From positions 124,001 to 188,000 of the forward strand of contig NZ_ATXG01000006.1 of the NCBI RefSeq assembly GCF_000421565.1: a DNA stretch of 64,000 nt. The letters are read 5' to 3'. Numbering within the stretch: position 1 is the stretch's first letter; each line of letters starts with the position of its first letter. Shown here in pieces: positions 1,149 to 47,396 of this stretch. The stretch comes from Agromyces subbeticus DSM 16689. GTDB taxonomy: Bacteria; Actinomycetota; Actinomycetes; Actinomycetales; Microbacteriaceae. A program made the position numbers and the translations under genes. The notes beneath the pieces were generated by a model. That model did no database searches. It was not told where the DNA came from and saw only the letters and a program-made list of their open reading frames with translations.

Positions 1149-2185
1149 CGCTCGTTCCGTTCGGTGAGGGCGCCGGCCGTGTCACGGCGCAGCACGTAGC
1201 GCTGGTAGATGAGGGCGACGACGAGTGAGATGACGAACAGCACGACCGCCACGGCGTTGCCGTAGCCGTAGTTGCCGGCGTTGCGCCCGTTGGCGACCAT
1301 GTACGTCGCCATCGTCGAGGTGCCGGCCGTCGAGGCGATGTACTGGCCCCAGATGATGTAGACGAGGTCGAAGAGCTGGAGCGATCCGATGATCGACAGG
1401 AACGCCCAGATGCGCAGCGTCGGGCCGAGCAGCGGCAGCGTGATGCGGCGCTGGATCTGCCAGTAGGAGGCGCCGTCGATCTGGGCGGCCTCGGTGAGCT
1501 CTTGCGGGATGCCCTGCAGGCCGGCCAGGAAGAGGATGACGGCGAAGCCGATGTACTTCCAGGTGATGATGCCGAGCAGGGTCCAGATCGCGAGGTCGGG
1601 GTTCGAGAGCCAATCTTGCGCGAGGCCGTCGAGGCCGAGCTTCTCGAGCAGCCCGTTGAGCGCGCCGTCGCTCTGGAGCATCAAGCTCCAGCCCGTGCCG
1701 ACGACGACCTCGGCGAGCACGTAGGGCACGAAGATGAGTACCCGGATGAGCGACTGCCCGCGCATCGGGCGGTTCAGCAGCAGCGCCAGCAGCAGCGCGA
1801 GCGGCCCCTGCAGCACGAGCGACATCACGACGATGATCGTGTTGTGCCAGAGGGCCTCATGGAAGGTCGGGTCCTGGAGGATCGTCACGTAGTTCTGCAG
1901 CCCGACGAAGTCGGTCGGCAGGCCGTAGCCCTTCCAGCGGAAGAACCCGTAGTACCCGGCCATGACGACCGGGAAGATGACGAAGCCGAGGAAGACGACG
2001 AGAGCCGGGCCGACGAGCACGGTGATCTCGAGGGCCTTGCGCCAGTCGCGCGGGCGTCGAGACGACGGCGAAGGTGACGGCGACGGCTCGGCGCCCGGGC
2101 GGTCCGGAGACGACATGTCGCCTCCGGACCGCCCGGCGTCAGCCGGAGCCCGCCCCGCGGTGGGAGAACTGGTGCGAACGCTCAT
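1145..2185 (-). CDS. Carbohydrate ABC transporter permease (MalF-type)
   Basis: 346 residues at most. The N-terminal 45 residues are a Pro/Ser/Arg-rich cytoplasmic tail followed by membrane segments, and the EAA loop (TEAAQIDGASYWQIQRRITL) sits near residue 235. An internal ATG 23 codons later (2116) is a possible alternative start. It pairs with the MalG-type permease, which it overlaps by 4 bases, and follows the binding-protein gene after a 12-base gap. Expected role: one half of the heterodimeric membrane channel of a CUT1 sugar importer. Confidence 0.9.
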   Translation of the reverse strand: MSVRTSSPTAGRAPADAGRSGGDMSSPDRPGAEPSPSPSPSSRRPRDWRKALEITVLVGPALVVFLGFVIFPVVMAGYYGFFRWKGYGLPTDFVGLQNYVTILQDPTFHEALWHNTIIVVMSLVLQGPLALLLALLLNRPMRGQSLIRVLIFVPYVLAEVVVGTGWSLMLQSDGALNGLLEKLGLDGLAQDWLSNPDLAIWTLLGIITWKYIGFAVILFLAGLQGIPQELTEAAQIDGASYWQIQRRITLPLLGPTLRIWAFLSIIGSLQLFDLVYIIWGQYIASTAGTSTMATYMVANGRNAGNYGYGNAVAVVLFVISLVVALIYQRYVLRRDTAGALTERNER

Positions 2186-2197
2186 GCTGCGAGGGCC

Positions 2198-3496
2198 TCA
2201 GCCCTTCTTGATGGCGTCTTCGACGGCGTCGACGATGCCCTGCGCATCGCCCTTGCCCGCGAGCAGGTCGACGACGCCGACGTTGAGCGCGTTGCCGACG
2301 TTCTGGCCGAGCAGCGTGTCGAGCCACACCGAGACGTAGGGAGCGTCGTTGTACGAGGCGAGCACTTCCTGCAGCGCGGGGTCGGCCACGACGCCCTGTG
2401 CGTCCTTGTTGGCCGGCAGGGTGACGAACGCCTCGGCGTAGGCCTCCTGTTGCTCCTTCTGCGACGCGAACTCGAGGAACTCGGCACACTCCTTCGGCGC
2501 GTCGACGAAGCAGCTGTAGCCGTCGACGCCGCCCATCATGGCGCCGGCGTCACCGTCGCCGCCGTCCACGGCGGGGAACGGGAACCAGCCGAGGTCGGCG
2601 AGGGGCTGCTCGTCGGGCGTGAGCGATGCGATGACTCCGGGGTCCCACGCGCCCATGAGCTCCATGGCCGCCTGGTGGTTGGCCACCAGGCCTGCGGAGG
2701 AGCCGGCGCCCTGCTGGGCGGTGGTGGTGAGGAAGCCGTCGTTGTACGGCTCGGTGGCGGCGAAGTCCGCGAGGTCCTCACCGGCGCGCAGGAAGCACTC
2801 GTCGGAGAAGCTCGGGTCGGACGCGAGCGCGGCCACGACGTCTTGCGAGCACTCGCGGAGCGTGAAGAAGTAGTACCAGTGGGCTGCGGGCCAAGCGTCC
2901 TTCGCACCGAGGGCGATCGGGGCGATGCCTGCGGCCTTGAGCTTGTCGACGCCGTCGCTCAGTTCGTCGAACGTGGTCGGCGTCTCGGTGATGCCGGCCT
3001 GTGCGAACAGGTCCTTGCTGTAGTAGATGCCGCCCGGCAGCACCGACGACGGCACGCCGTAGATCTTGTCGTCGACCGAGAGGGCGGCGAGCGATGCCTC
3101 GCCGAGCGCGGTCTTCGTGTCCTCCGAGATCGCATCGGTGAGGTCTTGCACCTGGCCGGCCTCGACGACGGCGGCGAGCTTGCCGCCGCCGCGTGCCATG
3201 AAGATGTCGGGCGCGTCGCCCGAGTTCAGCGCGGTCTGGAGCTTTCCATCCATGTCCTCGTTCTGGATGGCCTGGATCTCGATCTTCACGCCGGGGTGCT
3301 CGGCCTCGAAGTCGTCGGCCGTCTGCTGCCAGTAGGCCTTGCCGTCGCCGGTGGTGGAGTTGTGCCAGAAGGTCAACTCGACCGAACCGTCGTCGGTCTC
3401 TCCGCCGCCGGCGCTGCACCCGGCGAGGGCGGTGAGCGCCAGTGCGGCCACGGCCCCCAGCGTGACGAGCCGTGTGGTGCTGCGTCTGTTCATCAT
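2198..3496 (-). CDS. Extracellular sugar-binding lipoprotein of ABC importer
   Basis: 432-residue solute-binding protein. It begins with a signal peptide ending in the lipobox LAGC, so it should be lipid-anchored outside the membrane, followed by a Gly/Asp-rich linker and the family-1 binding fold (VELTFWHNSTTG near the N-terminus). Two ATGs are adjacent; the AAGG before them suits the second (3493) slightly better. It is the first gene of the minus-strand sugar operon, directly behind the promoter at 3551-3579 and the palindromic operator at 3513-3532. Ligand unknown; the neighbours suggest an oligosaccharide released from plant polymer. Confidence 0.9.
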   Translation of the reverse strand: MMNRRSTTRLVTLGAVAALALTALAGCSAGGGETDDGSVELTFWHNSTTGDGKAYWQQTADDFEAEHPGVKIEIQAIQNEDMDGKLQTALNSGDAPDIFMARGGGKLAAVVEAGQVQDLTDAISEDTKTALGEASLAALSVDDKIYGVPSSVLPGGIYYSKDLFAQAGITETPTTFDELSDGVDKLKAAGIAPIALGAKDAWPAAHWYYFFTLRECSQDVVAALASDPSFSDECFLRAGEDLADFAATEPYNDGFLTTTAQQGAGSSAGLVANHQAAMELMGAWDPGVIASLTPDEQPLADLGWFPFPAVDGGDGDAGAMMGGVDGYSCFVDAPKECAEFLEFASQKEQQEAYAEAFVTLPANKDAQGVVADPALQEVLASYNDAPYVSVWLDTLLGQNVGNALNVGVVDLLAGKGDAQGIVDAVEDAIKKG

Positions 3497-3512
3497 TGAA
3501 CCTTCTCGAAAG

Positions 3513-3532
3513 TTTCGACGTCAACGTCGAAA
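3513..3532. promoter_or_regulatory. Perfect 20-bp operator, probable ROK repressor site
   Basis: TTTCGACGTCAACGTCGAAA is an inverted repeat of two 9-bp arms with a 2-base centre. A second palindrome, CGAAAGTTTCG, overlaps it at 3507-3517. It lies between the -10 box of the sugar operon promoter and the binding-protein start codon, where a bound repressor would block transcription. The divergent ROK gene next door is the obvious binder; that assignment is inference. Confidence 0.7.
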
Positions 3533-3550
3533 GTAGTCTGGACGTGTCGA

Positions 3551-3579
3551 ATAGTACGTGGGTTCACATTTGGGGTCAA
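3551..3579 (-). promoter_or_regulatory. Sigma-70-like promoter of the sugar ABC operon
   Basis: Read on the minus strand: TTGACC (3579-3574), 17-base spacer, TACTAT (3556-3551). It directs transcription into the binding-protein gene, with the 20-bp palindrome just downstream of the expected start point. Confidence 0.7.
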
Positions 3580-3638
3580 GGGCAACATATTCGGCGCGGG
3601 AGCAGGTCTGGCATCTGCCGCGCCTCTAGAGTGGTCGC

Positions 3639-4835
3639 GTGACAGAACGGGACGGCACCCTCGACGGCGTGCATCGCCGCAATCTCTCCAAACTCCTCGG
3701 CCTCGTGCACCTCGACGGGCCGCTCTCGCGAGCCCGCCTCACCACGCTCACCGGGCTGAATCGATCGACGGTGGCGGCGCTCGCCGGGGAGCTCGTCGAC
3801 CTCGGACTCGTCGTCGAGCGCGCGCCCGACCCCACGAATCGGGTCGGCCGCCCCTCGCCCGTCATCGCCGCCGACCCTCGGGTACTCGCCTTGGCGGTCA
3901 ATCCAGAGGTCGACGCCGTGACCATCGCTGCCGTCGCACTCGACGGCTCGGTCGCCCGGCGCGAGCGCGTCGAGGTCGATCATCTGCTGGCGCCCGACGA
4001 GGTCGCAGCGCTCGTCGCCGCGACGCTCGAACGCTGGCGCTCGAGCCACCTGCAATCGTCCCGGTTCCTGGCCGTCGGGCTCGCCGTGCCCGGTCTCGTG
4101 CGCGCCTCCGACGGCATGGTGCGCCTGGCGCCGCACCTCGGCTGGGCGGATGCCCCGATCCGCACGCTCGTCGAGCAGGCCACGCAGCTGCCCGTCACCG
4201 TCGGCAACGACGCGAGTCTCGGCGCGGTCGCCGAGCACCTCTTCGGCGCCGGCCGCGATGTCGACGACCTCGTCTACCTGAACGGCGGCGCGAGCGGCAT
4301 CGGCGGTGGCATCGTGCTCGGTGGTCGGCTCGTCGGCGGTGCCGGGGGCTACGCGGGGGAGTTCGGCCAGAATCGGCCTGGCATCGCGCTGACTGCCGAC
4401 CGGCGCGCCGACGGCGGTGTGCTCGAAGACGAGGTGAGCCGCGCGCGACTGCTCGAGGTCGCGGGGCTCACCACCGCCGACGAGCCGACGCTCGCCGCGG
4501 CGCTCGCCGACTCGATCCGGCCAGGCGTGGCACAGGAGCTCGCGCGCCAGCGGCGCATCCTCGCGACGGCGCTCGCGAACGCGGTGAACGCGCTGAATCC
4601 CTCGCTCGTCGTGCTCGGCGGGTTCCTCGCGACCGTCGCCGACAGCGATCTGGCCGCCCTCGAGGCCGAAGTCGCCGAGCAGGCCATGCCGGCGGCATTC
4701 GAGCAGCTCGCGATCCGCACTGCTGCGCTCGGTGAAGACCGCCTGATGATCGGCGCCGCGGAGGCGGCGTTCTCATCGCTCCTGGCCGATCCGCTCGCCG
4801 GCCTGCCGATCGGGCCTGTGCACGAGCAGCGTTGA
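3639..4835 (+). CDS. ROK-family transcriptional regulator
   Basis: 398 residues from a GTG start. Residues about 10-75 form a winged helix-turn-helix (LSRARLTTLTGLNRSTVAAL), followed by the ROK sugar-kinase-like fold with the AVGLAVPGLV and NDASLGAVAEH segments. The cysteine cluster that binds zinc in typical ROK proteins (CxCGxxGC) is absent; the corresponding stretch reads GEFGQNRPGI followed by an Asp/Glu-rich loop. It is divergent from the sugar ABC operon and most likely represses it through the palindrome at 3513-3532, released by a sugar ligand. The regulatory role is inferred from position. Confidence 0.88.
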   Translation: MTERDGTLDGVHRRNLSKLLGLVHLDGPLSRARLTTLTGLNRSTVAALAGELVDLGLVVERAPDPTNRVGRPSPVIAADPRVLALAVNPEVDAVTIAAVALDGSVARRERVEVDHLLAPDEVAALVAATLERWRSSHLQSSRFLAVGLAVPGLVRASDGMVRLAPHLGWADAPIRTLVEQATQLPVTVGNDASLGAVAEHLFGAGRDVDDLVYLNGGASGIGGGIVLGGRLVGGAGGYAGEFGQNRPGIALTADRRADGGVLEDEVSRARLLEVAGLTTADEPTLAAALADSIRPGVAQELARQRRILATALANAVNALNPSLVVLGGFLATVADSDLAALEAEVAEQAMPAAFEQLAIRTAALGEDRLMIGAAEAAFSSLLADPLAGLPIGPVHEQR

Positions 4836-33743: not shown

Positions 33744-34499
33744 TCAAGCGGCGGCCGTGACTGTCGCGATCTCCTGCACAACCTCGCGCAGCACGGGAAT
33801 CGCACGATCGGCGAAGCTCTCGTCGACGCGGGCGACCGGGCCCGAGACCGAGACGGCCGTCGGCACCGGTGCTCCGGGAACGGTCATCGCGTAGCAGCGC
33901 ACACCGATCTCCTGCTCGCCGTCGTCGATGGCGTACCCGCGGGCGCGGGTCTCGCGCAGGTCGTCGAGCAGTGCGTCGAGCGAGTCGATCGAGTGCTCCG
34001 TCGACTTCGGCATGCCGGTGCGCGCGATGATGTCGCGCACCGTGGCATCGTCGAGCTGGGCGAGGATCGCCTTGCCCACCCCGGTGCTGTGCAGGTGCGA
34101 TCTCCGGCCGACCTCGGTGAACATGCGCATCGCGTGCGGCGACGGCGCCTGCGAGACGTAGATGACCTGGTCGCCGTCGAGCGTCGCGAGGTTGGCGGTC
34201 TCGCCGAGGCGTTCGACGAGATCTTTGAGCTGCGGCTTGGCCAGCTGGCCGAACTGCCGGTTCGCGACTTCGCCCAGGCGCACCAGGCGCGGGCCGAGCG
34301 CGTAGCGCCGGTTCGCGAGCTGGCGCGCGTAGCCGAGCGCGACGAGCGTGCGCAGCAAGCGGTGGATGGTCGGCAGCGGCAGGTCGGCCATCGTCGAGAG
34401 TTCGCTCAGCGTGACGTCGCCCCCGGCGTCGGCGATGAGCTCGAGCAGGTCGAAGACCCGGGCAACGGATTTGACGCCTTCGGGTGGGCTGTCCGACAT
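33744..34499 (-). CDS. IclR-family regulator of purine/allantoin catabolism (AllR-like)
   Basis: 251 residues. N-terminal winged HTH: SVARVFDLLELIADAGGDVT, LSELSTMADLPLPTIHRLLR; the rest is the IclR effector domain (AHAMRMF-like segment PSPHAMRMFTEVGRRSHLHS, TGVGKAILA, ARGYAIDDGEQEIGVRC). In E. coli and Streptomyces, relatives (AllR) respond to glyoxylate or allantoate. It sits between xdhABC and aceB, and a 15-bp motif occurs before its own gene and five other purine/glyoxylate promoters, so it is the likely master regulator. Effector identity is inference. Confidence 0.88.
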   Translation of the reverse strand: MSDSPPEGVKSVARVFDLLELIADAGGDVTLSELSTMADLPLPTIHRLLRTLVALGYARQLANRRYALGPRLVRLGEVANRQFGQLAKPQLKDLVERLGETANLATLDGDQVIYVSQAPSPHAMRMFTEVGRRSHLHSTGVGKAILAQLDDATVRDIIARTGMPKSTEHSIDSLDALLDDLRETRARGYAIDDGEQEIGVRCYAMTVPGAPVPTAVSVSGPVARVDESFADRAIPVLREVVQEIATVTAAA

Positions 34500-34665: not shown

Positions 34666-34709
34666 ACATTTTGATTGACGAACGGCTCGTCGCAGGAAAG
34701 AGTGGCACC

Positions 34710-36308
34710 ATGACCATCGAGATCAGCCGGGCGGCAAGCGCCGACGGCGCCGACGAGATCCTCACAGCAGAGGCGCTCGCGTTCGTCGAGCAACTGCACC
34801 ATCGCTTCGATGCGCGTCGGCTCGAGCTGCTCGCCGAGCGGCAGGCCAAGCGCGAACGCATCGCGGCCGGCGGCACGCTCGACTTCCTCCCCGAGACCCG
34901 CGAGATCCGCGAGGGCGACTGGCGCGTGGCATCCGCCCCCGACGCCCTGCTTGACCGACGTGTCGAGATGACCGGCCCGGCCGCTCCGGCCAAGATGGCG
35001 ATCAATGCCCTGAACTCCGAGGCCAGGGTCTGGCTTGCCGACCTCGAAGACGCCTCGAGCCCGCACTGGCACAACGTCGTCGGCGGCGTGAAGAACCTGC
35101 GCGACGCCGCGCTCGGCACCCTCGCCTACACGTCGCCCGCAGGCAAGCCCTATGCCCTGCGCACCGACGTGCGCCGCCCCACGGTGGTGACCCGGCCGCG
35201 CGGCTGGCACCTGCCCGAGCGGCACGTGCTCATCGACGGCGCGCCGGGCTCGGGCTCGCTCGTCGACTTCGGCCTGCACTTCTTCCACACGGCGCAGCTG
35301 CTGATCGACAACGGCCACGGTCCCTACTACTACCTGCCGAAGCTCGAGAGCCACCTCGAGGCCCGCCTCTGGAACGACGTGTTCGTCTTCGCGCAGCAGT
35401 CGCTGGGCATTCAGCAGGGCACGGTGCGGGCGACGGTGCTGATCGAGACGATTCCGGCCGCGTTCGAGATGGACGAGATCCTCTACGAACTGCGCGATCA
35501 TGCCTCGGGCCTCAACGCCGGGCGCTGGGACTACCTGTTCAGCCTGATCAAGGTCTTCCGCGATGCCGGGCCCGCCTTCGTGCTGCCCGATCGCGCCCAG
35601 GTCGCGATGACGGCCCCGTTCATGCGCGCCTACACCGAGCTGCTCGTGAAGACGTGTCATCGTCGCGGCGCCGCCGCGATGGGCGGCATGGCCGCCGTCG
35701 TGCCGAACCGCAACGACCTCGAGGTCACTCGAGCCGCGTTCGACAAGGTGCGCGCCGACAAGACCCGCGAGGCGAACGACGGCTTCGACGGCTCGTGGGT
35801 GGCCCACCCCGATCTCGTTCCCGTCTGCCGCGAGGTGTTCGACGCGGTGCTGGGCGAGCGCCCGAACCAGTTCGACCGCCAGCGACCCGAGGTCGAGGTG
35901 ACGGCGGCCGAACTGCTCGACGTCGCCTCGGCGCCGGGTGACGTCACCGAGGCGGGCCTGCACGCCAATCTCTACGTCGCAGTCGCCTACACCGCCGTCT
36001 GGCTCTCGGGCAACGGCGCCGTCGCGATCCACAACCTCATGGAGGATGCCGCCACGGCCGAGATCTCGCGGTCGCAAGTGTGGCAGCAGCTCAGGAACCA
36101 CGTCGTGTTCGCCGACACCGGCCGCGCGATCACGCCCGAGCTCGTGCGCACGGTGCTCGCCGAGGAAGTCGAACGGCTTCGCGGCGAGGTCGACCCCGAG
36201 CGCTTCGCCGCGTACTACGAACCGGCTGCCGCGCTCATCGCCGACATCTGCCTCTCCGAGGAGTACGTCGACTTCCTGACCCTCCCCGCCTACGAACTGC
36301 TGGACTGA
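34710..36308 (+). CDS. aceB: Malate synthase A
   Basis: 532 residues from ATG 34710, which has AGGAAAGAG upstream (a TTG at 34671 is possible but overlaps nothing useful and would add 13 residues). The family signature RDHASGLNAGRWDYLF is intact, with ETIPAAFEMDEILYEL before it and the LADLEDASSPHW Mg-site region earlier. It condenses glyoxylate with acetyl-CoA to malate. Here it takes glyoxylate from purine degradation into the TCA cycle; no isocitrate lyase is adjacent. Regulated by the IclR-type site upstream. Confidence 0.95.
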   Translation: MTIEISRAASADGADEILTAEALAFVEQLHHRFDARRLELLAERQAKRERIAAGGTLDFLPETREIREGDWRVASAPDALLDRRVEMTGPAAPAKMAINALNSEARVWLADLEDASSPHWHNVVGGVKNLRDAALGTLAYTSPAGKPYALRTDVRRPTVVTRPRGWHLPERHVLIDGAPGSGSLVDFGLHFFHTAQLLIDNGHGPYYYLPKLESHLEARLWNDVFVFAQQSLGIQQGTVRATVLIETIPAAFEMDEILYELRDHASGLNAGRWDYLFSLIKVFRDAGPAFVLPDRAQVAMTAPFMRAYTELLVKTCHRRGAAAMGGMAAVVPNRNDLEVTRAAFDKVRADKTREANDGFDGSWVAHPDLVPVCREVFDAVLGERPNQFDRQRPEVEVTAAELLDVASAPGDVTEAGLHANLYVAVAYTAVWLSGNGAVAIHNLMEDAATAEISRSQVWQQLRNHVVFADTGRAITPELVRTVLAEEVERLRGEVDPERFAAYYEPAAALIADICLSEEYVDFLTLPAYELLD

Positions 36309-36311
36309 ACG

Positions 36312-37577
36312 ATGACCACTTCACGGGGCTCCCTCACCGCCGCCGACCTGGCGCGCGCAGATGCACAGCTGCAGGCGACCGACACGCTGCTGGCCACCGC
36401 ATACCCGGGCGACGACGGCTCGCGCCAGCCCGTGCACACCGTGTACGTGCCGGCCGACCGGTACACCCCCGAGCTGCCGACCGTGTGGGGGCGGGCCGCG
36501 CTCGCCGCCGTCGAGGCGGCCGGGGGACTCGAGGAGATCGCGACCTCGGTGGGGCTCGACAGCGGCATCGCGGCCGCCGTGGCGCCGCGAGTGCGCGACA
36601 AGCTCGAACGCGAGCCGATCGAAGACCTGCGGATCGACTTCGAAGACGGCTACGGCGACCGCGGCGACGACGTCGAGGACGCCGATGCGGTGCGGGCCGC
36701 CAAGCGGGTCGTCGCCGCAGCCGGCGCCGGCTTCGCCCCGCCGTTCATCGGCATCCGCTTCAAGTGCTTCGAAGCATCGACGCGGGCGCGCGGCATCCGC
36801 ACGCTCGACCTGTTCGTCACCGCACTCGTCGAGCACGGCGGACTGCCCGACGGCCTCATGCTGACGCTGCCGAAGGTGTCGACCGTCGCGCAGGTCGAGG
36901 TGATGGCCGATGTCGCGGCCGCCCTCGAACGTGCGCACGGTCTGCCCGACGGCCGGCTCCGTTTCGAGGTGCAGGTCGAGACGCCGCAGCTCGTGCTCGG
37001 CGCCGACGGCCGCTCGCCGGTCGCGCAGCTCGCGCTCGCCGCCCCCGGCCGCGTCAGCGCCCTGCACTACGGCACGTACGACTACAGCGCGTCGCTGCAG
37101 ATCGCCGCCCGCTACCAGTCGATGGAGCATCCGGTCGCCGACCTCGCGAAGGGGATCATGCAGCTCGCGGTCGCGGGCACCGGCATCCGCCTGTCCGACG
37201 GGTCGACGAACATCCTCCCGATCGGGGACCGCGCCGAGGAGGCCTGGGCGCTGCACGCCCGCCTCGTGCGACGTTCGCTCGAGCGCGGCTATTACCAGGG
37301 CTGGGACCTGCACGCCCACCAGCTGCCGACCCGGTACCTCGCGAGCTACGCCTTCTTCCGCGAGGGGTACCCCGAGGCATCCGCCCGCTTGCGCAACTAC
37401 CGCGAGCGCACCGCCGGCGCGGTGCTCGACGAGCCGGCCACGGCGCGCGCGCTCGCCGACTTCGTGCTGCGCGGCGTCGAGTGCGGCGCCGTCGCCGAAG
37501 CAGAGGTCGCCGCCGACATCGGCATCGACCGGCGGGCGCTCACGGTGCTCGCCCATCCGAAACTCGCGAACCGATGA
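36312..37577 (+). CDS. DUF6986 protein, CitE/HpcH-HpaI aldolase-like
   Basis: 421 residues, starting 3 bases after aceB. I recognise it as the actinobacterial DUF6986 group; no experimentally settled function is known to me. It resembles the CitE/HpcH TIM-barrel superfamily: LRIDFEDGYG (CitE LDLEDAV), PPFIGIRFKC (substrate Arg), LTLPKVSTVAQ (PK motif), RFEVQVETPQLVL (metal Glu) and ALHYGTYDYSASL (metal Asp). All metal and substrate positions appear kept, so it is probably an active Mg-dependent C-C lyase, aldolase or thioesterase of a small acid, linked to malate synthase and glyoxylate metabolism. Substrate unknown. Confidence 0.75.
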   Translation: MTTSRGSLTAADLARADAQLQATDTLLATAYPGDDGSRQPVHTVYVPADRYTPELPTVWGRAALAAVEAAGGLEEIATSVGLDSGIAAAVAPRVRDKLEREPIEDLRIDFEDGYGDRGDDVEDADAVRAAKRVVAAAGAGFAPPFIGIRFKCFEASTRARGIRTLDLFVTALVEHGGLPDGLMLTLPKVSTVAQVEVMADVAAALERAHGLPDGRLRFEVQVETPQLVLGADGRSPVAQLALAAPGRVSALHYGTYDYSASLQIAARYQSMEHPVADLAKGIMQLAVAGTGIRLSDGSTNILPIGDRAEEAWALHARLVRRSLERGYYQGWDLHAHQLPTRYLASYAFFREGYPEASARLRNYRERTAGAVLDEPATARALADFVLRGVECGAVAEAEVAADIGIDRRALTVLAHPKLANR

Positions 37578-37617: not shown

Positions 37618-38430
37618 ATGAGCTACTTCACCCCCGCCGGCGGCCTGCCCGACCAGACCGAACTCCTCACCGATCGCGCGATCGTGAAGGAGGCGTACAC
37701 GGTCATTCCCAAGGGCGTGCTGCGCGACATCGTCACGAGCAACCTGCCGGGCTTCACGAACACGCGTTCGTGGATCATCGCGCGCCCGATCGCGGGGTTC
37801 GCCACGACCTTCTCGCAGCTCATCGTCGAGATCGCGCCGGGCGGTAGCGCCGCGCGACCCGAGCCCGAGGCGGGCGTCGAGGGCGTCGTGTTCGTGACGG
37901 CGGGCGCGCTCGTGCTGACACTCGAGGGCGAGCGGCACGTGCTCGAGGCGGGCGGCTACGCCTACCTCGCCGCGGGCAGCGACTGGTCGCTCGCGAACGA
38001 GGGCGATGCGGCGACGAGCTTCCAGTGGGTGCGCAAGGCCTACGAGACCGTCGAGGGCATCGCGGCGCCCGGGTCGTTCGTGACACGCGATCAGGATGTC
38101 GCGCCGCGCGAGATGCCCGGCACGAACGGCGCCTGGGCCACCACGCGGTTCGTCGATCCCGACGACCTGGCGCACGACATGCACGTCAACATCGTGACGT
38201 TCCAGCCGGGCGGGTCGATTCCGTTCGCCGAGACGCACGTCATGGAGCACGGCCTCTTCGTGCTCGAGGGCAAGGCGGTCTATCGCCTGAACGACGACTG
38301 GGTCGAGGTCGAGGCCGGCGACTTCATGTGGTTGCGCGCGTTCTGCCCGCAGGCCTGCTACGCGGGCGGCCCGGGGCCGTTCCGGTACCTGCTCTACAAA
38401 GACGTCAACCGGCAGATCCGCCTGACGTAG
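37618..38430 (+). CDS. allE: (S)-ureidoglycine aminohydrolase
   Basis: 270 residues from ATG 37618 with GAGGAG upstream. It is a bicupin: first barrel around LIVEIAPGGSAARPEPEAG, second around MHVNIVTFQPGGSIPFAETH with the metal ligands in the second (H, E, H) and the C-terminal WLRAFCPQACYAGGPGPFRYL typical of AllE/YlbA. It releases ammonia from ureidoglycine to give ureidoglycolate. Last gene of the aceB-DUF6986-allE set and followed by a good terminator. Confidence 0.9.
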   Translation: MSYFTPAGGLPDQTELLTDRAIVKEAYTVIPKGVLRDIVTSNLPGFTNTRSWIIARPIAGFATTFSQLIVEIAPGGSAARPEPEAGVEGVVFVTAGALVLTLEGERHVLEAGGYAYLAAGSDWSLANEGDAATSFQWVRKAYETVEGIAAPGSFVTRDQDVAPREMPGTNGAWATTRFVDPDDLAHDMHVNIVTFQPGGSIPFAETHVMEHGLFVLEGKAVYRLNDDWVEVEAGDFMWLRAFCPQACYAGGPGPFRYLLYKDVNRQIRLT

Positions 38431-38695: not shown

Positions 38696-39508
38696 ATGAC
38701 GTACACGGTGAACTGCTCGATCCTCCTGACCGAGTTGCCCCTGCTCGAGCGCCCGGCCGCGGCGCGTGCCGCCGGCTTCGACGCCGTCGAGTTCTGGTGG
38801 CCGTTCGGCGAGGCCGTGCCGGCCGACCGCGAGGTCGACGCGTTCATCGCGGCGATCCGCGACGCCGGCGTGCAGCTCACCGGCCTCAACTTCTTCGCCG
38901 GCGACATGCCCGCGGGCGACCGCGGCCTCGTCTCGTGGCCGGCCCGCTCGCGCGAGTTCCGCGAGAACCTCCCGGTCGTCGCGGCCATCGGCCAGGCCCT
39001 CGGATGCCGCTCCTTCAACGCCCTCTACGGCAACCGCGTCGACGGCGTGGCCGCCGAGGTGCACGAGGGCGTCGCGGTCGAGAACCTCGTGGCGGCGGCC
39101 GACGCCGTCGGCGCCATCGGCGGCACCGTGCTGCTCGAGCCCGTGAGCGGAGCGCCGTGCTACCCGCTGCGCACCGCGGCCGACGCACTCGGCGTGATCG
39201 ACGCCGTGCGTGACGCTTCCGGCGCCCGCAACGTCAAGCTCCTCGCCGACTTCTACCATCTCGCCGTCAACGGCGACGACGTCACGGCCGTGATCGAGGC
39301 GCACGCCGCCGACTTCGGCCACATCCAGATCGCCGACGACCCGGGCCGAGGGGCGCCCGGCACCGGCGCCCTCCCGCTCGACGTTTGGATCGACCGCAGC
39401 CACGAGCTCGGCTACACCGGCGTCATCGGCCTCGAATACAAGGCCCCCATCGAGACCGCATTCGGCTGGGTCGGCGCGGCACACGCCGCCGACGCCGGCG
39501 CTCGCTGA
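38696..39508 (+). CDS. hyi: Hydroxypyruvate isomerase
   Basis: 270 residues, TIM-barrel of the sugar-phosphate isomerase/epimerase group: begins YTVNCSILLTELPLLERPAA, has AGFDAVEFWWPF, LLEPVSGAPCYPL, KLLADFYHLAVNGDDV and HIQIADDPGRGAPGTG, with metal ligands Glu, Asp, Gln/Glu as in Hyi/Gip. It interconverts hydroxypyruvate and tartronate semialdehyde. First gene of the glyoxylate-to-glycerate operon, preceded by AAGGA at 7 bases. Confidence 0.92.
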   Translation: MTYTVNCSILLTELPLLERPAAARAAGFDAVEFWWPFGEAVPADREVDAFIAAIRDAGVQLTGLNFFAGDMPAGDRGLVSWPARSREFRENLPVVAAIGQALGCRSFNALYGNRVDGVAAEVHEGVAVENLVAAADAVGAIGGTVLLEPVSGAPCYPLRTAADALGVIDAVRDASGARNVKLLADFYHLAVNGDDVTAVIEAHAADFGHIQIADDPGRGAPGTGALPLDVWIDRSHELGYTGVIGLEYKAPIETAFGWVGAAHAADAGAR

Positions 39509-39585: not shown

Positions 39586-40464
39586 ATGAGCAACATCACC
39601 GTCATCGGACTCGGCATCATGGGACTGCCCATGGCGAAGAACCTCGTCGAGGCCGGCCACTCGGTCACGGGCTTCAACCTCACCCAAGACCGCATCGACG
39701 CGCTCGTCGCCGCGGGTGGTCGCGGCGCCGGCAGCATCGCCGGGGCCGTCGCGGGCGCCGAGGTCATCATCACGATGGTGCCCGACTCGCCCGACGTCGC
39801 AGCGGCGGTTCGCGGCGACGACGGAATCTTCGCGAACGCCGACGCCGGCGCGCTGTGGATCGACGCGTCCAGCATCCGCCCCGACGTCGCGAAGGAACTC
39901 GCCGACGAGGCGAGGGTCGCCGGCCTCCGACCGATCGACGCGCCCGTCTCGGGCGGCGAGCAGGGCGCCATCGACGCGGTGCTCTCGATCATGGTCGGCG
40001 GCGAGGCGGCCGACTTCGCTGCCGCACTGCCCGTGCTCGAACGGGTCGGCAAGACGATCGTGCACGTCGGTCCCTCGGGCGCAGGCCAGACCGTCAAGGC
40101 CGCCAACCAGCTCATCGTGGCCGTGAACATCCAGGCACTCGCCGAGGCGATCCTCTTCCTCGAGGCGTTCGGCGTCGACACCGAGGCCGCGCTCACGGTG
40201 CTCGGCGGCGGCCTCGCCGGCTCCAAGGTGCTCGACCAGAAGGGGCGCAAGATGCTGAACCGCGACTTCGCGCCCGGGTTCCGCCTCGCCCTGCACAACA
40301 AGGACATGGGCATCATCACCGCCGCCGCCCGCCAGGCCGGCATCACCATCCCCCTCGGCGCCCACGTGGCCCAGCTCGTCGGCTCGACCGTGCAGCAGGG
40401 CGACGGCGGCCTCGATCACTCCGGACTCTTCAAGCTGACCGCAGCGGCCTCCGGCCGCAGCTGA
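39586..40464 (+). CDS. glxR: 2-hydroxy-3-oxopropionate (tartronate semialdehyde) reductase
   Basis: 292 residues of the beta-hydroxyacid dehydrogenase family: NAD(P) loop VIGLGIMGLPMAKNL, substrate loop DAPVSGGEQGA, the catalytic Lys in GQTVKAANQLIV and KDMGI near the C-terminus. It reduces tartronate semialdehyde from Gcl to D-glycerate. Start at 39586 has GAAGGA upstream; 77 bases separate it from hyi and 24 from gcl. Function is strongly supported by neighbours. Confidence 0.93.
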   Translation: MSNITVIGLGIMGLPMAKNLVEAGHSVTGFNLTQDRIDALVAAGGRGAGSIAGAVAGAEVIITMVPDSPDVAAAVRGDDGIFANADAGALWIDASSIRPDVAKELADEARVAGLRPIDAPVSGGEQGAIDAVLSIMVGGEAADFAAALPVLERVGKTIVHVGPSGAGQTVKAANQLIVAVNIQALAEAILFLEAFGVDTEAALTVLGGGLAGSKVLDQKGRKMLNRDFAPGFRLALHNKDMGIITAAARQAGITIPLGAHVAQLVGSTVQQGDGGLDHSGLFKLTAAASGRS

Positions 40465-40488: not shown

Positions 40489-42285
<1,797 letters not shown>

Positions 42286-42286
42286 G

Positions 42287-44830
42287 ATGAAGGTCGTCGT
42301 CGCTCCCGACAAGTTCAAGGGGTCGCTGACCGCCCCCGAGGTGGCGCGTGGCGTCGCCTCGGGGCTGGCCGCGTTCGACCCGTCGATCGAGGTCGTCTCG
42401 GTGCCGGTCGCCGACGGCGGCGAGGGAACGCTCGACGCGGCCGTCGCGGCCGGCTACGAGTTGCGCACGGTGACCGTGACCGGGCCGACGGGAGATCCGG
42501 TCGAGGCCGCCTTCGCCATGCGCGGTGACCGCGCTGTCGTCGAGCTGGCTCGAGCATCGGGCCTCGACCTGCTGCCGGGCGGCCGGTTCGAGCCGCTCAC
42601 CGCGACGAGTCGCGGCACCGGGCAACTCGTGCTCGCGGCGCTCGACGCCGGCTGCCGCGAGCTCGTGCTCGGCATCGGCGGCAGCGCGTCGACCGACGGC
42701 GGTACGGGGCTGCTGCGGGCGCTCGGTGCGCGATTGACGGATGCCGCGGGCGACGAGCTGCCCGACGGGGGCGCCGCGCTCGCGCGCTTGGCCGCCGTCG
42801 ACCTGACCACGCTCGACCCCCGCCTCGCCGAGACCGCGATCGTGCTCGCGAGCGATGTCGACAATCCGCTCCTCGGACCCGACGGCGCCGCGGCCGTGTT
42901 CGCTCCGCAGAAGGGCGCGAGCGCCGAAGACGTTCGCACCCTCGACGAGGCACTGGCCCGGTTCGTCGACGTGCTGGGCTCGGGCCGAGCTTCGGGGCCC
43001 GAGTCGGAACCAGTGCCGGGCGGCGAGGCCCGCGACGCATCGCTCGCGCCCGGAGCGGGCGCGGCGGGCGGCGTCGGGTTCGCCGCGATCGCCGTGCTCG
43101 GCGCGCATCGCCGCCCCGGCATCGACGTCGTGCTCGAGCTCACCGGCCTCGCCGCCGCGCTCGACGGGGCCGACGCGGTGATCACGGGTGAAGGCAGCCT
43201 CGACGAGCAGAGCCTCATGGGCAAGACCCCGATCGGCGTCGCTCGCCTCGCGCGGGCCGCCGGGGTTCCCGTCTACGCCGTCTGCGGGCGCACCACGCTC
43301 GATGCCGATCGGCTGCACTCCGCCGGCTTCGCGGGCGTGCGGGCGCTCAGCGACCTGGAGTCCGATCCGGCGCGCAGCATGGCCCACGCCGGCGAACTGC
43401 TCGAGCGCCTCGCCGAGGAGCTTGCGGCAGACATCGTCGCGGGCTCGGCGGCATCCGATGCTGCCGGTATCGCGCCTACCGGTATCGCCGCCGCTGCGGC
43501 CTACGACCTCGTGCTGCGTGGCGGGCGGGTGCTGCTCGACGGCGTGTTCTCGCCGGCCGAGATCGGCGTACAGGGCGGTCGCGTCGCTCGGGTCGCACCG
43601 CTGGGTGCAGGCCTCTCCGCGGCGCGCATCGTCGAACTGGCCCACGACGAGGTGCTCATCCCGGGACTCGTCGACACGCACGTGCACGTCAACGAACCCG
43701 GCCGCACCGAGTGGGAGGGTTTCGCCTCGGCCACCCGGGCCGCGGCGGCCGGCGGGGTCACCACGATCATCGACATGCCGCTCAACAGCATCCCGCCGAC
43801 GACATCGGTGGCGGCGCTCGACGTCAAGCGTCGCGTGGCCATTGGCCAGACTCACGTCGATGTCGGCTTCTGGGGCGGTTACGTGCCGGGCAGCCTCGAC
43901 GAACTCGAGCCGCTCGCCCGCGCGGGCGTCTTCGGATTCAAGTGCTTCCTGCTGCACTCGGGCGTCGACGAGTTCCCGGCCGTGACGGCCGACGAGCTCG
44001 AGGCGGCGATGGAGGTGCTCGCCGGCCTCGACTCGCTGCTGATCGTGCACGCCGAAGACGCGCGCATCATCGACGAGGCCCCGCACCCGCACAGCACCGA
44101 CTACGGCGACTTCCTCGCCTCCCGCCCGCGTGCTGCCGAAGACGCGGCCATCGCCGACGTCATCGAACGGGCCGCCCGCACCGGCGCCCGCGCGCACGTG
44201 CTGCACCTCAGTTCGGCCGACTCGCTCGACCGCATCGCCCGTGCGAAGCGCGACGGCGTCGCCCTCTCGGTCGAGACGTGTCCGCACTACCTCACGCTCA
44301 CCGCCGAAGAGATCCCCGCGGGTGCCACGGCGTTCAAGTGCTGCCCCCCGATCCGCGAGGCGGGCAACCGCGACGCGCTCTGGCGCGGCCTCGACGAGGG
44401 CACGATCGACTTCGTCGTCTCCGACCACTCGCCCGCCACGCCCGAGCTCAAGTACGCCGGCGACGGCGACTTCGCAGAGGCCTGGGGCGGCATCGCCTCG
44501 CTGCAGCTCGGCCTCCCGCTCATGTGGACCGAAGCTCGTCGCCGTGGCATCGCGTTGGAACGCGTCGTGGGCTGGATGTCGACCGCACCGGCCGACCGGG
44601 TCGGCCTCGCGACCAAGGGCCGCATCGCGGTCGGCGCCGCGGCGGACTTCGCGGTCTTCGCTCCCGAGGCGGTCTTCACGGTGGATGCCGCGGCACTCGA
44701 GCACCGGCATCCGGTGACGCCCTACGACGGGCGCGAACTCTCAGGCGTCGTCCGGGCCGCGTTCCTCGCGGGCGAGCCGATCGACCGGGAGCTCGCGCGC
44801 GGCAGGCTGCTGCGGCACGGGGACGCCTAG
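42287..44830 (+). CDS. Glycerate kinase-allantoinase fusion protein
   Basis: 847 residues in one uninterrupted frame. Residues 1-384: type I glycerate kinase (VVAPDKFKGSLTA, LGIGGSASTDGGTGLLRALG, AGAAGGVGFAA, ITGEGSLDEQS), phosphorylating glycerate. Residues about 385-404: Ala/Ser/Gly linker with no usable start codon. Residues 405-847: allantoinase of the dihydroorotase-like amidohydrolases, with metal ligands H465 and H467, carboxylated K552, H588, H640 and D713; DTHVHVNEPGRTEWEGF is typical AllB. All active-site residues of both halves look intact. It starts one base after gcl. The fused enzymes act at opposite ends of the route (allantoin ring opening and glycerate phosphorylation). Confidence 0.93.
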   Translation: MKVVVAPDKFKGSLTAPEVARGVASGLAAFDPSIEVVSVPVADGGEGTLDAAVAAGYELRTVTVTGPTGDPVEAAFAMRGDRAVVELARASGLDLLPGGRFEPLTATSRGTGQLVLAALDAGCRELVLGIGGSASTDGGTGLLRALGARLTDAAGDELPDGGAALARLAAVDLTTLDPRLAETAIVLASDVDNPLLGPDGAAAVFAPQKGASAEDVRTLDEALARFVDVLGSGRASGPESEPVPGGEARDASLAPGAGAAGGVGFAAIAVLGAHRRPGIDVVLELTGLAAALDGADAVITGEGSLDEQSLMGKTPIGVARLARAAGVPVYAVCGRTTLDADRLHSAGFAGVRALSDLESDPARSMAHAGELLERLAEELAADIVAGSAASDAAGIAPTGIAAAAAYDLVLRGGRVLLDGVFSPAEIGVQGGRVARVAPLGAGLSAARIVELAHDEVLIPGLVDTHVHVNEPGRTEWEGFASATRAAAAGGVTTIIDMPLNSIPPTTSVAALDVKRRVAIGQTHVDVGFWGGYVPGSLDELEPLARAGVFGFKCFLLHSGVDEFPAVTADELEAAMEVLAGLDSLLIVHAEDARIIDEAPHPHSTDYGDFLASRPRAAEDAAIADVIERAARTGARAHVLHLSSADSLDRIARAKRDGVALSVETCPHYLTLTAEEIPAGATAFKCCPPIREAGNRDALWRGLDEGTIDFVVSDHSPATPELKYAGDGDFAEAWGGIASLQLGLPLMWTEARRRGIALERVVGWMSTAPADRVGLATKGRIAVGAAADFAVFAPEAVFTVDAAALEHRHPVTPYDGRELSGVVRAAFLAGEPIDRELARGRLLRHGDA

Positions 44831-44991: not shown

Positions 44992-45468
44992 ATGATCAAC
45001 TCGTCCGACGAACTCGAACTCGGCCAGATCGCCCCCGACTTCGCGCTGCGCGATGCCGCCGGCGCGACCCGCACGCTCGTCGAACATCGCGGCGGCCCGG
45101 TCGTCGTGTACTTCTACCCGGCCGCGTTCACCCCCGGTTGCACGACCGAGGCGTGCGACTTCCGCGACAGTCTCGCCTCCTTCCAGGCCGCGGGATACAC
45201 GGTGCTCGGCATCTCGCCCGACCCGATCGAGCGCCTCGCCGAATTCGCCGCGGCCGAGCAGCTCGCCTTCCCGCTGCTCTCAGACGAGGGTGCCGCGGTC
45301 GCGCGCGCCTGGGGCGCGTGGGGGCAGAAGACCGTCGACGGCGCCACTTTCGACGGTCTGCTGCGCTCGACGGTCGTGGTCGACGCCGATGGCGTGGTCA
45401 CTGAGCTCGAGTACAACGTCGATCCGAACGGGCACGTCGCTCGTCTGCGCGGGCGACTCGGCCTCTGA
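44992..45468 (+). CDS. bcp: Peroxiredoxin of the BCP/PrxQ family
   Basis: 158 residues. The active site is FTPGCTTEACDFRD, with peroxidatic C50 and likely resolving C55, followed by GYTVLGISPDPIERLAEFA and the typical RSTVVVDADG. Reduces H2O2 and organic peroxides with thioredoxin-like donors. It lies between the allantoinase fusion and the uraD operon, where urate oxidase produces H2O2, so a protective role is plausible. GGAG precedes its ATG; 161 bases of leader with no clear promoter lie upstream. Confidence 0.9.
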   Translation: MINSSDELELGQIAPDFALRDAAGATRTLVEHRGGPVVVYFYPAAFTPGCTTEACDFRDSLASFQAAGYTVLGISPDPIERLAEFAAAEQLAFPLLSDEGAAVARAWGAWGQKTVDGATFDGLLRSTVVVDADGVVTELEYNVDPNGHVARLRGRLGL

Positions 45469-45472
45469 GGGC

Positions 45473-45502
45473 TTGCCGCACGCGGCATCCCGATGGTAGA
45501 AT
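45473..45502 (+). promoter_or_regulatory. Promoter of the urate-degradation operon
   Basis: TTGCCG (45473-45478), 18-base spacer, TAGAAT (45497-45502). The boxes lie right after the bcp stop codon and 21 bases before the IclR-type operator, matching the layout at hyi. Confidence 0.65.
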
Positions 45503-45523
45503 TGTCGCATGCTGAAATAACAG

Positions 45524-45538
45524 TTCCACGATACGGAA
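45524..45538. promoter_or_regulatory. IclR-type operator before uraD
   Basis: TTCCACGATACGGAA: TTCC and GGAA arms separated by 7 bases, matching the six-site consensus WTCCRCAnnRCGRAA at all but one position. It lies 21 bases after the -10 box and 62 bases before the chosen uraD start. Confidence 0.65.
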
Positions 45539-45600
45539 GCACGACAACGCCGTATAGACCGACACCGTGGATGCCAGCAGACCAGAGAGTGGATCAAGCG

Positions 45601-46095
45601 ATGCTGCTTGAAGTATTCAACGACGTCGACCGCCAGACGGCGATCGACACGCTCAGACCCTGCGTCGACATCGGCCGCTGGTGCGAGTCGATCGCCGACG
45701 GCCGACCCTATGCCTCGGTCGACGAGCTCGTGACAGCCGCCGATGCCGCTGCGGCTCCGTTCAGCGCCGAGGAGATCGAGGGTGCGCTCGCGCACCATCC
45801 GCGCATCGGCGAGCGGGCTCGCGGCGACACCGCCGAGGCGACGATGTCGCGCAACGAGCAGGCCGGGCTCGACCCCGATGACGCCATCAGGGCGGCACTC
45901 TCGGACGGCAATCTCGCCTACGAGCAGCGGTTCGGGCGGGTGTTCCTGATCCGCGCCGCCGGCAGATCGGCCGGCGAGATGGTCGCGCTGCTCACCGAGC
46001 GCCTCGAACACTCGGCCGAGGAGGAAGACCTCGTCGTCGCCCAGCAGCTCCGTGAGATCGCGGTGCTCCGACTGAAGGGAATCATCTCGCGATGA
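45601..46095 (+). CDS. uraD: OHCU decarboxylase
   Basis: 164 residues from ATG 45601; an ATG at 45571 is possible, but starts further upstream (45493) would precede the promoter. The catalytic His is H66 in AHHPRIGER, followed by SRNEQAGL and the YEQRFGRVFLIRAAGRS segment typical of UraD. It decarboxylates 2-oxo-4-hydroxy-4-carboxy-5-ureidoimidazoline to S-allantoin. It overlaps uraH by 4 bases; first gene of uraD-uraH-uox. Confidence 0.93.
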   Translation: MLLEVFNDVDRQTAIDTLRPCVDIGRWCESIADGRPYASVDELVTAADAAAAPFSAEEIEGALAHHPRIGERARGDTAEATMSRNEQAGLDPDDAIRAALSDGNLAYEQRFGRVFLIRAAGRSAGEMVALLTERLEHSAEEEDLVVAQQLREIAVLRLKGIISR

Positions 46096-46436: not shown

Positions 46437-47396
46437 ATGACGAACACCCTCATCCACACCATCACCGACGACAGCGCCGCCGGCGGCGGCGCCACGGCTG
46501 CTGCCGGGGGCATCGTGCTCGGCGCGAACCAGTACGGCAAGGCCGAGGTGCGCGTCGTCAAGGTCACCCGCGACACCGACCGCCACGAGATCGAAGACCT
46601 CAATGTCACCTCGCAGCTTCGCGGGGACTTCGCGGGTGCTCACCTCGACGGCGACAACTCGCACGTCGTGGCCACCGACACGCAGAAGAACACGATCTTC
46701 GCGTTCGCCCGTGAGGGGGTCGGCTCGCCCGAGTCGTTCCTGTTGCGCCTCGCCGACCACTTCACCGGCGCGTTCGACTGGGTGAGCGGTGGCCGGTGGG
46801 AGGCCGAGAGCTACGCCTGGCAGCGCATCGAGGCGCACGGGGCGCCGCACGACCACTCCTTCGTGCGCTCGGGCCAAGAGGTGCGCACGGCCGTCGTCGT
46901 CGCCGATGGCGCCGAGCGCCACGTGATCGCGGGCCTCAAGGAACTCACCGTGCTGAAGACCACGCAATCGGGCTTCGAGGGCTTCCCGAGAGACCGGTAC
47001 ACGACGTTGCAGGAGACGAGCGACCGCATCCTCGCCACGGATGTCGCCGCGCGCTGGAGGTACACGGGCGTCGATGTCGACTTCAACGCCGCCTACGAGA
47101 GCGTGCGAGCGCTGCTGCTCGAGGCCTTCACCGAGAAGTACTCGGCGGCGCTGCAGGCCACCCTGTTCGACATGGGCTCGCGCGTGCTCGAGCGCCACCC
47201 CGAGATCGCCGAGATCCGGTTCTCGATGCCGAACAAGCACCACTTCCTCGTCGATCTCGGCCCCTTCGGGCTCGACAACCCGAACGAGGTGTTCTTCGCC
47301 GCCGACCGGCCGTACGGCCTCATCGAGGCGACCGTCACGCGAGAGGGCCTCGACCCGGTGCCGGCCGCCTGGAACGGCATCGCCGGGTTCTGCTGA
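46437..47396 (+). CDS. uox: Urate oxidase (cofactor-free uricase)
   Basis: 319 residues. After a 25-residue Gly/Ala-rich N-terminus comes ANQYGKAEVRVVKVTRD with the catalytic Lys, then NSHVVATDTQKNTIFAFA with the catalytic Thr, FEGFPRDRYTTLQET and the C-terminal IRFSMPNKHHFLVDL with the active-site His. Two T-fold domains per chain. It oxidises urate with O2 to 5-hydroxyisourate and H2O2. Final gene of the operon; only a short 7-bp stem (47451-47469) follows. Confidence 0.96.
   Translation: MTNTLIHTITDDSAAGGGATAAAGGIVLGANQYGKAEVRVVKVTRDTDRHEIEDLNVTSQLRGDFAGAHLDGDNSHVVATDTQKNTIFAFAREGVGSPESFLLRLADHFTGAFDWVSGGRWEAESYAWQRIEAHGAPHDHSFVRSGQEVRTAVVVADGAERHVIAGLKELTVLKTTQSGFEGFPRDRYTTLQETSDRILATDVAARWRYTGVDVDFNAAYESVRALLLEAFTEKYSAALQATLFDMGSRVLERHPEIAEIRFSMPNKHHFLVDLGPFGLDNPNEVFFAADRPYGLIEATVTREGLDPVPAAWNGIAGFC

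Follow-up and report, generated by a model that had tools for sequence, protein, structure and literature searches.

A single reading frame joining glycerate kinase and allantoinase in a purine catabolic locus of Agromyces

In Agromyces subbeticus DSM 16689 the glycerate kinase GlxK and the allantoinase AllB, which are normally separate enzymes, are encoded by one gene. The window that we analysed, a stretch of 64,000 nucleotides, contains at 42287..44830 on the plus strand an uninterrupted ATG-to-stop frame of 847 codons that carries both enzymes, identified by the open frame and by Pfam and NCBIfam matches. The calculated mass of its 847-residue product is 86.3 kDa. The glycerate kinase domain (42293..43432, plus strand) is matched by the Pfam family PF02595, Gly_kinase, over residues 3-382 with 432 bits against a cut-off of 23.3, and by the NCBIfam model TIGR00045 over residues 2-381 with 378 bits against a cut-off of 168.45. 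It is followed by an Ala/Gly-rich linker (residues 383-405; 43433..43501, plus strand), delimited by alignment and an AlphaFold model, and then by the allantoinase domain (43505..44791, plus strand). The latter is matched over residues 407-835 by the NCBIfam AllB model TIGR03178 (568 bits, cut-off 357.85) and over residues 456-800 by Amidohydro_1 of Pfam. Structural alignment was used in assigning both domains.

In the tests made, both domains behave as ordinary family members. The six metal ligands of AllB (H465, H467, K552, H588, H640 and D713) are all in place in the window's protein, lie where it aligns with allantoinases of solved structure and do not vary among the 14 fused proteins examined. 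They correspond to what we take to be the binuclear ligand set of AllB, namely four histidines, one carboxylated lysine and one aspartate. The kinase motifs DKFKGSL, DGGEGT, GGSA, SDVD and TGEGSLD, to all of which we presume a catalytic role, are likewise kept in 14 of 14, with small changes around the last three. Models for glycerate 2-kinase and glycerate 3-kinase both score far under their cut-offs (299 of 686 and 293 of 625 bits), and in a profile search of the whole genome the fused gene was the sole PF02595 kinase found. The preliminary description of this DNA had proposed a single frame joining two enzymes with intact catalytic residues, and the frame, both domains, the conserved ligands and motifs and the recurrence of the fusion in relatives bear this out. 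From the sequence we infer that both activities reside in one polypeptide.

The explanation that we favour, tentatively, is that this protein is a bifunctional GlxK-AllB fusion in which the tethered kinase activates AllB, as has been reported for the two proteins of E. coli. For these, Rodionova et al. 2023 (PMC10163214) reported binding by co-IP and native gel, and activation of AllB by GlxK in the presence of glyoxylate: the Km of AllB-Zn fell from >15 mM to 2.8 mM with GlxK and 1 mM glyoxylate. For Mn-AllB, Table 2 of that paper gives a modest decrease in Km from 5.8 to 3.8 mM, whereas its text states a change of over threefold; Vmax/Km rises from 42 to 122. The authors proposed GlxK as a glyoxylate sensor; they also found their proposed interface to be poorly conserved and doubted the generality of the contact. 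In E. coli allB and glxK belong to one operon and are non-adjacent, with ybbY between them, and the word "fusion" is absent from the main text of the paper.

The fused protein is pictured as two folded beads, an intact kinase and an intact AllB, connected by some 24 flexible residues. The gene glxK, as the last member of a hyi-glxR-gcl-glxK cassette leading from glyoxylate to phosphoglycerate, would have lain directly upstream of allB until the intervening stop was lost. If the E. coli behaviour is carried over to Agromyces, the join would hold GlxK permanently beside AllB in a constant 1:1 proportion, the glyoxylate-dependent activation would become intramolecular, and purine breakdown would be driven forward where a glycerate outlet exists and glyoxylate accumulates. 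Because E. coli GlxK is reported to activate AllB, the fusion may be viewed as a "Rosetta stone" for this regulatory pair, and the joining of exactly GlxK and AllB suggests that their association matters beyond E. coli. Regulation of AllB by the tethered kinase, for which we argue by analogy, is less certain than bifunctionality or the loss of the stop.

Two kinds of observation may be set on the side of regulation: the fusion joins the very pair reported to interact in E. coli, and the cassette and the fusion coincide in 29 of the 29 Agromyces loci that are compared below. On the other side stand the GlxK lysines 2, 11 and 18 singled out by the predicted E. coli docking model, which puts the kinase at the cleft between subunits of the AllB tetramer. 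K11 is found in 14 of the 14 fused proteins; K18 is found in none, and K2 is kept only in the window's protein, being replaced by R in the others. Nor is any contact between the domains fixed in the monomer model. It had earlier been suggested that the fusion fixes stoichiometry rather than channelling an intermediate. Simple substrate channelling was indeed set aside, since allantoinase and glycerate kinase are the entry and exit enzymes of the route and their reactions are not consecutive. A fixed ratio is trivially true of any fusion and nothing marks it as a selected property; the suggestion was also incomplete, in that it overlooked the reported binding and activation of AllB by GlxK in E. 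coli (PMC10163214).

The origin of the fusion may be approached from its unfused relatives. There, glxK often directly precedes allB among the fetched loci. Among 68 unfused tandem glxK-allB pairs, which were gathered by similarity, include many close relatives and therefore present a pattern of non-independent cases and not a census, an SD-preceded allB start was found in 66, and in 53 of these allB overlaps glxK, by 8 nt in 41 and by 4 nt in 12. In ten loci (L036, L064, L065, L068-L071, L113, L258 and L259) glxK and allB share a frame that is interrupted by exactly one stop, and therefore a single change could fuse them. We infer that stop loss between adjacent genes was the route to fusion. 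Mapped onto a tree of 93 AllB rows, the fused label takes 3 changes. Thirteen fused halves and one unfused sequence (G027) form a clade of 14 with support 100/93, and the fourteenth fusion, G128, lies elsewhere, beside its unfused relative G123. A single origin of all 14 fused AllB halves was considered, and their placement in one clade was rejected (AU p 3.7e-43, 43 rows); once G128 is left out, a clade of the remaining 13 is not rejected in the same 43 rows (AU p 0.073). In the kinase tree (49 rows) the 13 group together with support 100/99, and the joining of G128 to them is not rejected (p 0.455). On the AllB evidence, the fusion arose at least twice. The second fusion, G128, belongs to another genus of the family; its linker is unrelated and its AllB half comes from a different lineage. 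Its linker (L192, between 5415 and 5546) contains an 18-base core of an interspersed repeat, now in open frame, with 26 exact copies in the G128 genome, 17 in the window's genome and 0 for the reversed control. G123 has the order allE-allB-bcp without the cassette; in G128 hyi-glxR-gcl-glxK stands ahead of allB.

Almost as likely as the regulatory reading is a plain, selectively quiet operon fusion. Chance would have removed the stop between translationally coupled neighbours, and the joined gene would have been kept as harmless or for the sake of co-expression, with no regulatory contact between its halves. The frequency of overlapping tandem genes (53 of the 68 pairs) and the ten loci with a single stop between genes in the same frame are what such an accident would draw upon, and the unconserved linker, the low pTM of the predicted structure and the accidental look of the repeat in the G128 linker point the same way. 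This explanation fits less well with the persistence of a single frame while divergence among the fused proteins has reached 65% identity in the kinase and 68% in AllB, with the two or more origins indicated by AllB, and with the fact that the partners are exactly the pair reported to interact in E. coli.

In the window's protein about 24 residues join the kinase to AllB. Among the 13 fused proteins of Agromyces and Microbacterium, mean pairwise identity is 0.16 in the linker, 0.71 in the kinase and 0.77 in AllB; their linkers vary in length from 7 to 26 residues and many are rich in Ala, Gly, Pro or Thr, while that of G128 has 44 residues. AlphaFold, supplied with a 39-row alignment, returned a mean pLDDT of 88.4 and a pTM of 0.58, with pLDDT <50 at residues 394-403. 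Because the whole-chain pTM is only 0.58 against this mean pLDDT, the domains are not confidently placed relative to one another, and the monomer model predicts two confident domains with a disordered linker and no fixed mutual orientation.

The linker was also said in the preliminary description to lack a usable restart codon. For the window this is correct: no in-frame ATG, GTG or TTG occurs among the 30 codons that precede residue 406, and the first in-frame GTGs, at residues 409 and 415, belong to the first strand of AllB and have no SD-like motif. It does not hold for every relative, because the fusion of M. aurantiacum has two linker ATGs at most 9 codons ahead of the AllB domain. These ATGs, together with in-frame starts preceded by an SD-like motif in 6 of the 14 fused loci (five of these starts lie inside the end of the kinase and one inside AllB), are what can be said for a leaky fusion, in which an internal start also yields free AllB so that cells contain both forms. 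We consider this improbable. From -30 to 0 the window lacks a start, the GTGs at +3 and +9 being the only ones nearby, and starts are rarer in fused loci. An in-frame start at -30 to +1 is present in 169 of 177 unfused loci (a set that includes some genomes twice) versus 9 of 14 fused ones, and an SD-preceded start at -30 to +10 in 140 of 177 versus 6 of 14. Within Agromyces the SD-like motif test discriminates poorly, the unfused loci L015-L033 having such a motif in 9 of 19 cases and a start codon in 18 of 19. Less probable still is a cut by a protease in the linker that would turn the whole fusion into two ordinary enzymes; the linker is predicted to be disordered at 394-403 and evolves fast, but the aligned linkers, inspected by eye, contain no common motif.

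Chance, or a sequencing, assembly or base-calling error that removed a real stop, found no support and can be ruled out for all practical purposes, because the same single frame is present in at least 11 of 60 Agromyces genomes and in two Microbacterium species. The latter are represented by M. aurantiacum Sa12 and M. murale CCM 7640, and with these the search of relatives for the same fusion, which had been put forward as a check, gave a positive answer. Wider draws of genomes overlap one another and fusions returned as partial matches could escape the count; with this reservation, single-frame fusions were found in at least 3 of 398 genomes of the family (G000, which is the window's genome, G016 and G128), in at least 2 of 396 of the order (G000 and G016, plus the ambiguous L163) and, at E up to 1e-190, in 1 of 394 of the class and 1 of 396 of the phylum, each time the window's own. 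L258 and L259, near full-length matches in the class draw, were rejected since one in-frame stop lies between their genes. A hidden wide spread was also considered and rejected on the basis of 34 fetched loci, 31 of them chosen for long open frames or ambiguous matches and 3 (G128, G123 and G027) for context; all 34, together with L141-L164, gave only G128 again and L163. In L163 (G579, minus strand, 1501-4296) the kinase and AllB share one frame at a distance of 118 residues, and because this stretch holds an ATG the locus was left out of the count. As far as our searches of the open-licence literature go, the kinase-allantoinase combination is new; among the papers listed there, no title or start of an abstract describes such a fusion.

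The fusion lies within a catabolic island. Upstream of it in the window are genes for an IclR-type regulator (33744..34499, minus strand, start codon chosen by eye), malate synthase A (aceB; 34671..36308, plus strand, from its NCBIfam profile), a DUF6986 protein (PF22484 of Pfam; 36312..37577, plus strand) between aceB and allE, and an allE-like double-cupin protein (37618..38430, plus strand, by domain match), which we take from its context to be (S)-ureidoglycine aminohydrolase. The DUF6986 gene adjoins allE in 28 of the 29 Agromyces loci compared, the exception being G043, and is also found beside allE in Mycobacterium (L087), Cryobacterium (L125) and Leucobacter (L071). The cassette then begins with a hyi-like gene (38696..39508, plus strand), for which the best model, hydroxypyruvate isomerase, gives 243 bits and is under its cut-off of 353. 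It continues with a reductase gene (39586..40464, plus strand) recognised by NAD_binding_2 and NAD_binding_11, to which we assign the name glxR from context, and with gcl, identified by profile as glyoxylate carboligase (40489..42285, plus strand). One base separates the gcl stop from the fusion ATG, and AAGG is found upstream of this ATG. Beyond the fusion come a peroxiredoxin gene of the AhpC/TSA family, called bcp (44992..45468, plus strand, domain match), and, both by profile, uraD for OHCU decarboxylase (45493..46095, plus strand, start codon provisional) and the urate oxidase gene (46437..47396, plus strand). The sole AllC (TIGR03176) match in the genome is on another contig (C20:54455-55642, L256), with 181 bits against a cut-off of 598, too low for the allantoate step to be assigned to it. 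Between about 20783 and 33666 the window presumably contains, as judged from translations, moaA-, modABC-, guanine-deaminase-, purine permease- and xanthine-dehydrogenase-like genes. Because moaA/modABC-like, guanine-deaminase- and xanthine-dehydrogenase-like genes adjoin the island, molybdenum supply and urate formation appear to be clustered with it. No ureidoglycolate lyase (PF04115) was found in the window's genome, despite the presence of uricase, OHCU decarboxylase, AllB and AllE-like genes, and the uncharacterised DUF6986 protein could supply a missing step.

Within Agromyces we compared 29 loci, comprising all 11 fused loci found and, among the matches listed, 18 of 23 unfused loci with AllB at least 68% identical. 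The hyi-glxR-gcl cassette is present in 11 of 11 fused versus 0 of 18 unfused loci, as is the peroxiredoxin gene after the fusion or beside allB, and an IclR gene beside aceB is present in 10 of 11 versus 0 of 18. Upstream, 10 of the 11 fused loci also possess four further genes, those for the IclR regulator, malate synthase and the DUF6986 protein and allE; in the 10 kb fetched for the eleventh, G043, none of these four was found. The 18 unfused loci contain no cassette, IclR or peroxiredoxin gene in the 11-17 kb fetched. In them the DUF6986 gene, allE and allB follow directly in this order, after malate synthase in 14 of 18, and since all 18 carry AllB without a neighbouring kinase, AllB need not have an adjoining kinase in this genus. 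Going by known pathways, both haplotypes could in principle handle glyoxylate, either through malate synthase or through the glycerate route. When the fused label is mapped onto an rpoB tree of these 29 genomes, it needs 8 changes, 7 of them forced by well-supported branches; shuffled labels needed 9.0 on average, with 162 of 500 shuffles as low as 8. With G128 as outgroup, an earlier tree likewise required 8 changes (93 of 500 shuffles). Vertical inheritance of one fused Agromyces lineage was considered, and a single rpoB clade was rejected (AU p 3.4e-71). On trees of the locus genes the label needs 1 change for aceB and for the DUF6986 gene, with moderate support (76/97 and 68/70, respectively), 2 for allB, allE and uox, and 4 for uraD and the enolase-like gene; the figure for allE excludes an off-target G043 row (33% identity), with which it is 3. 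The xdhA tree has fused rows for only 3 of 21, too few for the label. Because the label requires a nearly random 8 changes on rpoB and few on the locus genes, the block appears to move between species. Alternatively, two old haplotypes may have been retained with many losses. The metabolic locus has two apparently interchangeable haplotypes, of which only one includes the glycerate outlet. An extended form of the regulatory reading, which we regard as rather unlikely, is that the fusion is a glyoxylate-gated, self-contained allantoinase, with a kinase half that senses product and activates the entry enzyme, travelling between species in a haplotype that couples the release of purine nitrogen to the glycerate outlet.

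If the tethered kinase does activate AllB, the GlxK-AllB contact of E. coli would be old or convergent and not a recent local invention. A natural fusion of GlxK and AllB in a distant phylum, with two or more origins as judged from AllB, is independent, circumstantial support for the reported contact, and it provides one purifiable protein for a direct test of the activation of AllB by GlxK.

Each half of the protein has solved counterparts. The AllB half aligns along most of its length, also by fold, with the allantoinases 3hm7, 8hfd and 3e74, and the kinase half does so with the glycerate kinases 3cwc and 1to6; in the rows shown each of these chains matches one half only, whereas the window's protein has both. 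Micrococcales loci such as those of Arthrobacter (L086) and Pseudarthrobacter (L108) possess the same genes in the same order, hyi-glxR-gcl-glxK-allB, with glxK directly upstream of allB, but they differ from the window in that the two genes occupy separate frames. The E. coli system described in PMC10163214 involves the same two enzyme families and the same pathway, and direct binding with an effect on AllB is reported there. In that case two separate proteins bind in the presence of glyoxylate or allantoin, whereas in Agromyces they are predicted to be covalently joined. Finally, the fusion may be compared with the Rosetta-stone metabolic fusions treated in PMC4921024, the main text of which contains neither "allantoin" nor "glycerate kinase". 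Like these, it unites in one polypeptide, as judged from the open frame, functionally linked products that are encoded by separate genes elsewhere. The usual metabolic fusions in that account join consecutive steps, which it names first, or the subunits of a complex, whereas the Agromyces fusion joins the first and the last enzyme of the route from allantoin to phosphoglycerate.
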